In this document: positions 21,470 to 63,760 of the stretch, piece after piece | Layout of the letters: every line of letters starts with the position of its first letter | How positions within the stretch are numbered: position 1 is the first letter of the stretch | Assembly: GCF_002104995.1 (NCBI RefSeq) | Contig: NW_024468258.1 | Location: 496,001 to 560,000 of the forward strand | Source of the DNA: Linderina pennispora | Lineage: Eukaryota > Kickxellomycota > Kickxellomycetes > Kickxellales > Kickxellaceae | Length of the DNA: 64,000 nt | Direction: 5' to 3' | The notes under the pieces: model-generated | What the model was told of the DNA's origin: nothing | Databases searched by the model: none | What the model saw: the letters and a program-made list of their open reading frames with translations, nothing else | Made by a program: the position numbers and the translations under genes

Positions 21470-22488
21470 ATGTTCCTCAACCCGCTGAGCACCTTTTCCC
21501 TGCGCTCGTCGCTGCGCTTCCGCCTCCCGCGCGCCTTCAGCACAACCCGCCGGGTGTCCAAGGCAAAGACATTGCCGTCTGCCGATGCCTCGCGGCCGTT
21601 TGTCAAGATCGTCGAGGTCGGTCCTCGCGACGGCCTGCAGAACGAGAAGACGCTGATCCCAGCAGCAGTCAAGATCTCGCTGATCAACCAGCTGACAGAC
21701 GCCGGGCTCCCGGTCGTCGAGGCGACCTCGTTTGTGTCGCCAAAGTGGGTGCCGCAGATGGGCGACGCCAAGCAGGTCATGGCAGGCATTACACGCAGTC
21801 CCAATGTGTCGTACCCAGTGCTGACGCCCAACACCAAGGGTCTGGAGGCAGCAATTGCAGCGGGTGCCGAGGAGGTGGCGATTTTCGGCGCGGCGTCCGA
21901 GTCGTTCAGCCAAAAGAACATCAACTGCTCGATTGCCGAGAGCATCCAGGAGGTTTGAGGATGTCGCAGCACGGGCGCAGCAGGCGGGCCTGCGGGTGCG
22001 TGGGTATGTGTCCTGTGTGGTTGGGTGCCCGTACGAGGGCAAGATCGACCCGCAGGCAGTTGCCGACGTCGCCGGACGTCTGGCGGCGCTCGGGTGCTAC
22101 GAGATTTCGCTGGGCGACACGATCGGCGTGGGGCGGCCAAGCGAGATCCGCGCGATGATCGAGGCCGTGTCCAAGACGGTGCCGGTCGAGAAGCTGGCGA
22201 TCCACTGCCACGACACGTACGGCCAGGCGCTGGCCAATATCTATGCGTCGCTGGAGGCAGGGATCCGGGTCGTGGACTCGTCGGTTGCGGGTCTTGGCGG
22301 GTGCCCGTATGCCAAGGGCGCCACGGGCAATGTGGCCACCGAGGACGTCGTGTATCTGCTTGAGGGGCTTGGGCTTCCGGACCGGCGTGGATCTGCACAA
22401 GCTGGCGGGCATTGGCCAGTGGATCTCCAATGAGCTGGGCCGCCCCACTGGTTCGCGCGTGGGCCGTGCTTTGCTGGCCAAGAAGTAG
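21470..22488 (+). CDS. Mitochondrial hydroxymethylglutaryl-CoA lyase, two apparent +1 shifts
   Basis: The ATG at 21470 opens an Arg/Ser-rich presequence (about 1-33) without acidic residues, as for matrix import. GPRDGLQNE at 51-59 binds metal and substrate, and GLGGCPYAKGATGN carries the catalytic Cys. The enzyme splits HMG-CoA into acetyl-CoA and acetoacetate in leucine breakdown. Frame 1 hits TGA at 21957. Skipping one G at about 21950-21953 restores the conserved SIQ-RFEDV region, and skipping C at 22374 restores GLG-FRTGVDLHKL. With both skipped, 338 codons remain, the normal family length. No intron fits, since only one base is in excess at each site. Sequence error and recoding both remain possible. 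Confidence 0.9.
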
Positions 22489-22658
22489 CCTTCTTTTTTA
22501 CACATATGCTCCACATGCCGGGTATCTTGTCGGCCCACAAGTGCTGGCCAAGTACAAATACACATATACAGATCCTGCACATGCTTTTGCAGTGAGGTCA
22601 CGCATTTTCGGCATTTTTGCGCGCTGACAAGCACTGGTCTACACTTCTTGATACAACA

Positions 22659-23385
22659 ATGGGCGCAGGGCAGAGCAAACAGAAGATTACAGCGCATGAC
22701 AAGGCTATCCTGGACATGAAAGTGCAGCGGGACAAGCTTCGGCAGTACCAGAAAAAGGCAAGTTGCTGCAATCCCTCTCCAGCAGAGCCCCTGTAGAAGC
22801 ACCAGACTAAACGCCCTTAGCACGTTTGCTGTGTGGGTGAATCGGCTAGGTCCAGGTGATATTCGATCGCGAAGACGCAATTGCCCGCGAGCTGCTCTTG
22901 AAGGGTGACAAAAAGCGCGCATTGCTGGCACTCCGGCGACGCAAGTTCCAGGAGCAGATGATAAAGAAGACCGACGACCAGCTGTTCAACCTGCAGCAGC
23001 TGAGCGAGACAATAGAGTTCTCGCTGGTGCAAAAGGACGTCATGTTTGGGCTGGAGCAGGGAAACAAGGTGCTGACCCAGCTCAACAACGAGATGCGCAT
23101 AGAGGATGTCGAGCGGCTGGCCGACGACACGGCAGAGGCAATTGCTTATCAGAACGAGGTTTCGGAAGGCGCTTCAGGCTCACATGACTGCCGAGGACGA
23201 AGACGCAGTTCTGGCTGAGCTCGAGGAGCTGGAGCGGCAGGAGGCTGATAGGCTCCGGCTCGAGATGCCGCACGTGCCCAGTCATGCCCTGCCTGAGCAA
23301 GCACAAGGAGCAGCGGAGGAGGAAGGAGGAGGAAGAGGAGGAGGTCGAAGCTCAGCGCGCCCGGAATGAACCATTGCTTGCGTGA
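22659..23385 (+). CDS. VPS20: ESCRT-III subunit VPS20/CHMP6
   Basis: Exon 1 is 22659-22757, and exon 2 starts at 22850 after a 92-bp intron with a GC donor (GCAAGT) and CTAG acceptor. The protein begins MGAGQSKQ, an N-myristoylation signal as in Vps20/CHMP6, followed by a basic Snf7 core (RDKLRQYQKK, RKFQEQMIKKTDDQL) and an acidic tail with MTAEDEDAVLAELEEL, the MIM-type helix. It nucleates ESCRT-III on endosomes for multivesicular-body sorting. The frame breaks at 23159 (extra G in CGAGGTTT), and probably again in the tail near 23300, where one skip gives an end NEPLLA before TGA at 23383-23385. Corrected length is about 210 residues, as in the family. Confidence 0.85.
22758..22849 (+). other. 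GC-AG intron in VPS20
   Basis: The exon boundary is AAAAAG|GCAAGT and the acceptor GGCTAG|GTCCAG. Joining keeps phase 0 and gives a continuous YQKK-VQVIFDRED of the same length as CHMP6. No GT donor nearby fits. Confidence 0.6.
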
Positions 23386-23618
23386 TGCTTTGATTGATGC
23401 CAACCTCGCAACTGGTTTTTTTAATACAATATGTTCCGCTAGAGCTCGCCAGAATTGCGCAGGGAGCATTGCGATTGTGTGATTGAGGCTGAGCACTGCT
23501 GCGGAGTGTAATCAGCGAGATATGGATTGCGAAAGTGAACTATAGACAGAAGAGACATGGTGTACAAGAGTGCGAATGTGGGAAACGGACGGGTGGAAAC
23601 GGGAGAGAGAATGCGCTT

Positions 23619-61700: not shown

Positions 61701-62735
61701 CAGCAGAGACGAAAATGCACCGGAGCTTTTGGATAATCTGCCCTGCTGACTATATCGACCGTTGTGGCCAACATTGGGCTCGCAAATGTGGCTTATAAGG
61801 TTTGTAGTTGCAAGGTCAACATTGTAGTTGACCAGCGCGTTCAAGGCAAGAGGCGACGAAAGCACAGGGATGTTCTTATCCAGTCGGTTGTCTACAATGT
61901 TGATTGAGACCAACTGGGCGCCTGGAGCAACGCCGTTGTTCCGCGCGTCACTAGGGTCATACGCAGCCAGGATGCCTGCAGCAATAGTTCCATGGTCGTT
62001 GTGGCAGGTGACAATGCTTAGAATCTGGCCATCGTCGTAAAAGTTCAGCGTGTAGGCCACCAAGAAACGGCGACTGAGCATCCCGATCTGCCCGGTCAGT
62101 TTATAAGCGCCTACCGCCTCTGCCTCGCTCAAGTCGCCGGTCTCAGATGTGTCAACTGCAGCACGCCACTGGTCGCCATCGTGGAACACAACGCAGTCGA
62201 ACACCGGCCCGCAGTCACGATACTGCTTCCCAAGGGTATTCCAGCACATCCTTTTGCATGCTTTAGCTCCCTGGAATCGCCGCAGCCCTCAACACTATCC
62301 AGCTTGGCCATCACATCGTTCGCCAGACGCATCAAATCACGCTCAAACATCGGTTTTCCGCACACGCATCAGGTCCGCCCGAACGTCGACAGGGGTGATA
62401 TCGAACATGCGCTTCATCCCAATGCGCCAGTCGCCGGTCGGGTTCGACCATTCAGGGTTCAGCCTCAGCGTGCGGCCAGTGGTTCCCGGCAGAGTGCCAT
62501 CAGAAGATTTCATGGGCTCGCTCATAACAACGTCACCAGCCCCAGAGCAGTCGATGTAGTCGACAACCTTGCGCTTCCCCTCACTGGTTACCTGCAGCCC
62601 ATGTGCCAGCGGGTCGATGCCAGAGTCAACGACAGCTACTAGCGTGCCTCGTCCGTCGTATGTGGGATTCTTGGCTAGGAACGCTGAGACCTGGGTCTCA
62701 TCCACAGGTACATGGGACGTCGGCGGATATTGCAT
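58791..62735 (-). CDS. TPP2: Tripeptidyl peptidase II (giant subtilisin), many +1 breaks
   Basis: The ATG at 62735 (MQYPPTSHVPV). The subtilisin triad is visible: VAVVDSGIDP (Asp), NDHGTIAAG (His) and EGTSQAAPN (Ser), with VSAVGNSGPALSTV (oxyanion Asn) and FSSRGPAADG. Beyond the catalytic domain come FKPEEIVRRFIAVPQGAT and RPSVEAVFDRKY, typical of TPP II alone. It trims tripeptides from proteasome products in the cytosol. Skips placed with fair confidence are 62351, 62257, 62235, 61754, 61744, 61581, 61343, 60988 and 60966; the last 900 bp (to about 58791, ending WLKEFPGSFIPV) needs at least five more that I could not place exactly. Expected length is about 1,300 residues. The 1.2-kb block 60851-59679 is clean. 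Confidence 0.85.
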
Positions 62736-63089
62736 GGCGACTGGTAGATAGATTGGGCTGCTGGTAGTAGTGACCAAGGAGAGGCTTGAAAGTGCGTGGT
62801 GGTTGTGCAATAAGGGGGTAAAAGAGGAGAGGCATTGGCAGTCCTGGCCGGTGCCGTCGACATGGCGGACCAACCTGCGCAATAGCGTTGCCTGCATGAC
62901 CTCAGTAGAATTGGGCAATGGAGGGATCAGCAGTGGGACTCATTCACCTTCCGCCTTTGGCGCCTCTGGCCATCTGCATGATGCACGGGGTGTGTGAGTG
63001 CATACGTGTTTGCGTGGAGACACCAAGTGACAGCAGCGACGGACAATGTATTGGTTGTGTCTGGATGCAGGAGAAAAACGCAGATCTAA

Positions 63090-63760
63090 TTAGTTCTTTT
63101 GGCCTTGCATCTCCTTTCAGCGCCTCAGGGTCCAGCTGTGCCTGGAGGACGCGGCAGGATAAACACTGCGGCGAGCGAGGCACCGACCATCATCATGTAC
63201 GGGTTTGAGAACATGGAGATGAGGCTGAACCCTTGGCGCGGCGTGAAGAAATCGAACTTGTCGGCAGCAGCAATGCGCAGAGGGTACGCCAGAACCGGCG
63301 TGTCCTCGGACCACTCCGAGCCCACCTGCACATAGCGGGCAGCAATTGAGGCGCGGCCATCCTCCTTCAGCAAGATGCGCAGGTGAACCTTCGGGAACGC
63401 ATAGTCTGCGCTGTTGATCTCAAGCATCGAGTCACCAAGCTTGACGTTGTCCACTGCGAACGTGCCGTCGCTCTGGATGAATCCCGATGTTCTCCCCGCC
63501 GTTAACAACCACGCGCGCACTGGTTGCAAGCCCACTCACATCTAAGATGCCAGACAGATCGAAACCATTAGGCTGAGTCAAGTCAAGAAAGGAGCAAGGG
63601 GTTTGCGCTGTATCTCCCATGCTGAGGTGTCCACCGACTACTTACCAGCAAGAACGTCGTTGGCCAGCACTGTGCCGCGTACCCGATATGTCTTTTCACT
63701 GCCGAGCACGGCGGACAGCCAGCATGAGAACGCTACAGAAAGAAAAGTAAAAAATGGCAT
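63090..63760 (-). CDS. EMC7: ER membrane protein complex subunit 7
   Basis: Exon 1 (63760-63646) encodes a signal peptide (MPFFTFLSVAFSCWLSAVLG) and the start of the beta-sandwich; exon 2 starts at 63541 after a 104-bp GTAAGT...CTTAG intron, in phase. Then come ATSARVVVNGGE, after a skip at 63491 GFIQSDGTFAVDNVKLG and DYAFPKVHLRI, then FSLISMFSNPYMMMVGASLAAVFILP, the membrane helix. Skips at 63151 and 63114 give LDPEALKEMQGQKN and TAA at 63092-63090, matching the EMC7 cytosolic end. The corrected protein is 187 residues. EMC inserts tail-anchored and multipass membrane proteins. Confidence 0.85.

Follow-up and report, generated by a model that had tools for sequence, protein, structure and literature searches.

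Single-base frame breaks in conserved genes of a Linderina pennispora contig very probably represent uncorrected insertions in a long-read consensus

The window analysed here is a stretch of 64,000 nucleotides (bases 496001-560000) of contig C2 (801,100 bases) in the assembly of Linderina pennispora (26.17 Mb, 222 contigs). The proteins encoded in it are closest to those of Kickxellales. Conserved genes in this window, among them those for AMP deaminase (AMD1), the DBP7 helicase and tripeptidyl-peptidase II (TPP2), are interrupted by single-base shifts of the reading frame, and the observation of these frame breaks was confirmed as real. Based on the sequence comparisons below, the extra bases very probably arose as insertion errors that were left uncorrected when long reads, probably from PacBio, were assembled into a consensus; the breaks are almost certainly no biological feature. 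In total, 55 break positions were counted, pooled from the calls of a hidden Markov model (HMM), some of which are still ambiguous, and from alignments to homologues. This number is near the figure of about sixty given by an earlier sequence-only reading, although the genes concerned number 14 and not seventeen. All breaks are confined to the region from ~21.95 to 63.5 kb, and the earlier part of the window is break-free.

To locate the breaks, a purpose-written protein-to-DNA aligner was used in which shifts of one or two bases in either direction and GT-AG introns were permitted, together with a codon-phase HMM that costed +1 and -1 changes equally and was trained on the window plus 24 stretches of 10 kb. 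A model of codon usage only, built from long open reading frames (ORFs), carried too little signal (0.11 nats per codon), and its place was taken by a fourth-order phase model with iterated training. Each method was challenged with introduced changes. For the HMM, 117 insertions produced 94 +1 calls and one -1 call, 117 deletions produced one +1 and 95 -1, and 117 pairs of insertions produced 10 +1 and 77 -1; across 45.7 kb of coding sequence, in stretches picked as clean, it called zero breaks. The aligner, given the closest reference, classified every one of 100 insertions as +1 and every one of 100 deletions as -1. With a more distant reference, 100 insertions were returned as 99 +1 and one -2, and 100 deletions as 96 -1, four +1 and two +2. 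Since the controls of both methods were symmetric, the bias in direction described below does not originate in the method.

The references closest to the window were conspecific L. pennispora proteins. Such proteins are encoded on short contigs (2.3 to 8.2 kb), and two carry EC988 locus tags. The contigs behind the references used are 2-3 kb long, compared with 801 and 188 kb here, from which we infer a separate, independent assembly as their source. The three window genes with anchored breaks are as follows.

49243..51739, minus strand: DBP7 helicase, seven +1 breaks, six against the conspecific protein (51715, 51381, 51182, 51154, 50775 and 50753) and a seventh, 49753, with all four further homologues
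54313..56778, plus strand: AMP deaminase AMD1, three +1 breaks (55525, 55664 and 56574) from homologues and the HMM
58830..62735, minus strand: TPP2, nine +1 breaks between 62351 and 60969 against the conspecific protein, with denser and partly ambiguous breaks at 58.8-59.8 kb

For DBP7, 510 of 535 residues were identical to the conspecific protein, and the alignment required six +1 shifts and no -1 shift, with no codon gained or lost. The site at 50775, singled out by the sequence-only reading, was a +1 break with five of five homologues and has a companion at 50753. For TPP2, 857 of 909 residues were identical, with nine +1, no -1 and no codon insertion or deletion, and a Linderina macrospora protein (406 of 575 residues identical) placed seven +1 shifts at nearly the same positions. 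The carboxy-terminal part of this gene (58830-59850) has a break density far above that of the rest, about a dozen shifts per 1 kb, some of them possibly -1.

In the window, all six gene calls before 21.9 kb were free of breaks by the HMM, which made 22 +1 and 6 -1 calls beyond that point. The -1 calls in DBP7 and TPP2 proved to be close pairs of +1 once aligned to the conspecific proteins: the call at 51163 in DBP7 corresponds to 51182 plus 51154, and those at 60990 and 61738 in TPP2 to 61003 plus 60969 and to 61760 plus 61744, respectively. The caution that some net +2 breaks might equally be a single -1 had been rightly raised; it was settled in favour of +1 pairs in DBP7 and TPP2, as far as the conspecific proteins reach, whereas the homoserine kinase gene THR1 stays ambiguous, with one -1 called by the HMM at 43673. 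With one reference for each stretch, the anchored genes AMD1, DBP7 and TPP2 (to 60.0 kb) gave 19 +1 and no -1. The claim that no break requires a -1 shift holds in this anchored part and is not demonstrated for the carboxy-terminal stretch of TPP2, where -1 shifts are suggested. Over six alignments of one reference each, covering 11.8 kb of aligned coding sequence, the total was 39 +1, one -2 and no -1. For the window and the 24 stretches together (167 kb of coding sequence), the HMM made 117 +1 and 19 -1 calls.

A second TPP2 gene, located at C101:117919-122007 (L044), matched its conspecific protein at 981 of 989 residues and carried nine +1 breaks and one -2, the latter frame-equivalent to +1 and lying beside an ACC repeat. 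The public protein model from this gene, P0274, has lost residues by false splicing around the breaks. Comparison of the same loci in related strains had been proposed as a check on the breaks, and in the three genes broken here (DBP7, TPP2 and the C101 paralogue) the conspecific proteins were without breaks in every case, none of 25 being present.

Copies of AMD1 within the genome differ in the same respect. In the window copy, the two breaks reported earlier at 55667 and 56574 were recovered at 55664 and 56574, no more than 3 bases off, and a third at 55525 was found with four of five homologues, the fifth being short and beginning downstream of it. Against the five homologues, two or three +1 and no -1 were placed. 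The genome holds three copies of the gene, with 3 breaks on C2, 10-11 on C112 and 0 on C190. The C190 copy is unbroken, as is the conspecific protein, to which it is identical at 593 of 606 residues. The copies on C112 (L006) and C190 (L007) share 88% DNA identity with the window copy (L005) over 1.6-1.9 kb.

These comparisons bear directly on pervasive +1 ribosomal frameshifting (recoding) as in Euplotes, in which the extra bases would be real and the ribosome would skip one nucleotide at each. The anchored breaks are +1, lie in conserved genes and leave all residues in place, as recoding would have it, and extra bases were absent from 54 tRNA genes, in which recoding could not have compensated for them. 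Nevertheless, it was judged extremely unlikely. In all three broken genes for which a conspecific protein exists, that protein is without the breaks, and the AMD1 paralogues of one genome carry 3, 10-11 and 0. A stop codon lies within one codon at only 2 of 39 breaks (6.2% expected by chance), unlike the stop-specified shifts of Euplotes and in agreement with the earlier remark that no stop-codon context is evident; the median distance from break to stop was 24 codons for the 39 anchored breaks, with 22 expected. In addition, neighbouring genes agree in break status, and the literature, as far as titles and abstract openings go, yielded no report on recoding in Kickxellomycotina. For the C101 TPP2 gene, a living strain would need to have gained ten shifts of which so close a relative has none. 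It is extremely improbable that a strain should have single-base insertions by the hundreds or thousands, all within protein-coding sequence, tolerated by genome-wide +1 decoding independent of stop codons and without counterpart in close relatives. The sequence-only reading had favoured insertion-prone long-read error, which is supported here, and had added that pervasive +1 recoding would be indistinguishable from it in the DNA. The latter is not supported: recoding predicts sharing by close relatives, dependence on gene or motif and recurrence in paralogues. The breaks are neither shared with the conspecific proteins nor in agreement between the AMD1 copies.

Gene decay, that is, true frameshift mutations in pseudogenes or in a strain under relaxed constraint, would likewise explain why the extra bases are missing from the conspecific proteins, as strain-specific mutations would be. 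However, decay would yield insertions and deletions alike, and the 11.8 kb gave 39 +1, one -2 and no -1. Between the breaks, identity to the conspecific proteins is 94-99%, and DBP7 and TPP2 show no codon insertion or deletion. AMD1, DBP7, HMG-CoA lyase and EMC7 have core functions, which also counts against decay, and it was considered highly improbable.

Missed short introns or misaligned variable regions could mimic frame shifts, and the HMM does favour introns at 30565-30851, 45466-45558, 50753-50799 and 62226-62348. The aligner, however, was free to use GT-AG introns and still chose single-base shifts against the conspecific proteins. At 50753-50799 and 62226-62348 these proteins retain the residues of the supposed intron, with +1 shifts inside or adjoining it. 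This explanation was accordingly held to be very unlikely.

Insertion error in the consensus was further examined through the identity of the surplus bases and their distribution. Doubling of an adjacent base would account for the surplus at 24 of 29 anchored sites, compared with 55 of 120 simulated random insertions, a contrast that is somewhat overstated as the reference in the simulation was closer than for some of the real sites. The contexts of the 29 sites are unlike one another, as judged by eye. Among gene calls of at least 600 nt, 50 of 93 were break-free, compared with 25.8 expected under a Poisson distribution. Adjacent gene calls had the same status in 46 of 69 pairs (permuted mean 34.4; 20 of 5000 shuffles gave at least as many). 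Clumping in 10-kb blocks, assessed by chi-square, was not significant (reached by 190 of 2000 permutations), nor was a residual-product statistic (reached by 702 of 5000 shuffles), and clumping by place is therefore carried by one of three statistics together with the clean first 21.9 kb.

Besides the overstated contrast and these two statistics, several results weigh against insertion error as the source of the breaks. More distant references yield a few -1, -2 or +2 shifts in DBP7 and in the C101 TPP2 paralogue: near 51.13-51.16 kb, where the sequences diverge too far for good alignment, a -2 or +2 is placed in DBP7 with three of four such homologues, and P0244 places two -1 in the paralogue. 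In the carboxy-terminal kilobase of the window TPP2 (58.8-59.8 kb), 13 homologues of ~40-45% identity were compared. Twelve placed a -1 at 59267-59276, the remaining one a +2 giving the same frame change, and nine placed a -1 at 59214-59223, where the other four placed a +2. The sequencing platform of the assembly is not stated in the available portions of PMC7466969, PMC8298701, PMC11258239, PMC4719071, PMC7671305 and PMC10235951.

The strongest lean against insertion error comes from tRNA genes. In 54 such genes of six families (~3.9 kb), there were no extra bases and one missing base. Coding sequence carries on average 148 events per 158 kb when every -1 call is taken as two events. For the tRNA genes this average predicts ~3.7 extra bases, and the Poisson probability of none is ~0.025 by hand calculation, for a rate that is far from uniform. 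Of the 54 genes, 13 are on contigs from which one stretch had been read, with event rates of 2.55 (C1), 0.32 (C168) and 0 (C190) per kb; the other 41 are on unsampled contigs. The result is taken as chance plus uneven quality. The families were searched singly, since a search with the general tRNA family scored only 63 of 607 candidates, and six of 12 representatives were used. A whole-genome search for 5S rRNA gave a single match, hence no comparison of copies. ARAGORN found no tRNA in the window and one across the 24 stretches, and Rfam had no match in the window.

The missing tRNA base is in L043 (C13:478363-478454), which is one C short in a run of seven; the other 16 of 17 copies are identical. 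Identical tRNA genes are also found as oppositely oriented pairs within one contig, an arrangement reminiscent of inverted repeats, at C1:2808170-2812780 and C1:2843435-2848374 and on C13, C77, C160, C168 and C180.

Repeat copies were compared in search of extra bases outside genes. Copies in L008 and L017 showed few gaps. By MAFFT, L027, which lies on C2 near its end, differed from the repeat copy in the clean stretch L020 by six single extra bases up to position 9392. From 9485 to 10000 it showed nine small missing runs (gaps >3 left out), unlike the insertion-only pattern upstream and resembling an unpolished read end. By BLAST, the same pair showed small gaps in the opposite sense in far greater number, some of them within a short tandem stretch. 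This repeat is partly called coding by the HMM and is not a clean non-coding test. L017 (C2:360001-370000) and L008 (C2:1-10000) are themselves repeat-rich and contain many copies, several with 92-99.7% identity; gene signal there is slight or absent.

The remaining features of the window are listed below. Gene names without homology support (ORC4-like, MOSC, RNA cyclase-like, heat-shock-like and MoCF) are readings of the sequence by eye.

1..21900, no strand assigned: break-free block, six of six HMM gene calls intact, including a 1,968-codon ORF at 13692-19598 (codon HMM, ORF list)
21470..22485, plus strand: HMG-CoA lyase, two +1, at ~21953 and 22371 (codon HMM)
22850..23297, plus strand: gene call, one +1 at ~23165 (HMM)
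28774..31185, plus strand: ORC4-like gene call (name by eye), +1 near 31044; possible intron at the changes near 30655 and 30818 (HMM)
31778..33302, minus strand: gene call, five +1 and one ambiguous -1, or two +1 (HMM, relaxed settings)
35027..35954, plus strand: MOSC-type gene call (name by eye), one +1 near 35723 (HMM)
36010..37048, minus strand: RNA 3'-phosphate cyclase-like gene call (name by eye), one +1 near 36121 (HMM)
42318..43107, minus strand: MoCF (name from the earlier reading), changes near 42735 (called -1), 42827 and 42936 (HMM, relaxed settings)
43538..44619, plus strand: homoserine kinase THR1, one net +2 or -1 near 43673 (HMM)
44678..47943, minus strand: GPI inositol-deacylase BST1, +1 near 44795 and 45126, ambiguous change at 45466-45552 (HMM)
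52834..53282, minus strand: small heat-shock-protein-like gene call (name by eye), two +1 (HMM)
57178..57849, plus strand: intact gene within the broken block (HMM)
63128..63900, minus strand: EMC7, +1 near 63491 (HMM, frames, alignment)

Several of these genes contain sites that had been named from the sequence alone. For HMG-CoA lyase, breaks proposed at 21950 and 22374 were placed by the HMM at 21953 and 22371, and in the read-through peptide, compared with human HMG-CoA lyase (2cw6), the sole surplus at each break was the placeholder residue. The EMC7 site at 63491 was borne out in the same way, its read-through peptide matching human EMC7 (6ww7) across the site with a placeholder as the only surplus, the joining place having been chosen by hand from three frames. 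The MoCF site at 42924 has a counterpart at 42936, visible under relaxed HMM settings only. For BST1, the HMM also changes frame at 45466, close to the proposed 45463, although it models the change as an intron or as a -1 plus a +1 at 45552, and homology falls short of the site. For THR1, relatives in the PDB gave no decision between +2 and -1.

For the favoured explanation, surplus bases in a long-read consensus, the following course is postulated. Where few good overlapping reads covered a place, surplus bases would have been kept in the consensus. These would be of the type found in single-molecule reads, mostly one base read twice, and each one in coding DNA would move the frame by +1, such that conserved genes look split while the living gene is intact. 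We infer both the PacBio origin of the assembly and local coverage as what sets the density of breaks. L. pennispora is reported to have been sequenced with PacBio for Mondo et al. 2017. PMC7671305 gives 8.0% insertions, 3.2% deletions and 1.7% substitutions for PacBio raw reads, and ~4% of each for Nanopore.

If the surplus bases are errors, the issue is a practical one, namely damage to the gene models. Of the 93 sampled gene calls of at least 600 nt, 43 contain one or more apparent frame breaks, and public gene predictions such as P0274 are affected; caution is warranted wherever gene counts, domain losses or gene family claims are based on the assembly.

The Ty1 and ornithine decarboxylase antizyme types of programmed +1 frameshifting share their direction with the breaks described here. 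Those systems use one defined shift site in particular genes, whereas here there are dozens of sites whose contexts, by eye, are unlike. Euplotes resembles the present case in that conserved genes need +1 shifts in many places, and the breaks, if real, would amount to a second non-triplet code. Frameshifting in Euplotes is specified by stop codons, according to PMC10235951; here, there is no stop at the sites, no sharing with conspecific proteins and no agreement between paralogues. From insertion-type consensus error of PacBio continuous long reads, the present case differs in that missing bases dominate near the end of C2; it is known from sequence, with PacBio as the presumed platform. It corresponds to such error in its excess of single-base insertions that mostly repeat a neighbouring base, in a spread along contigs that seems uneven and in gene models that are split and falsely spliced.

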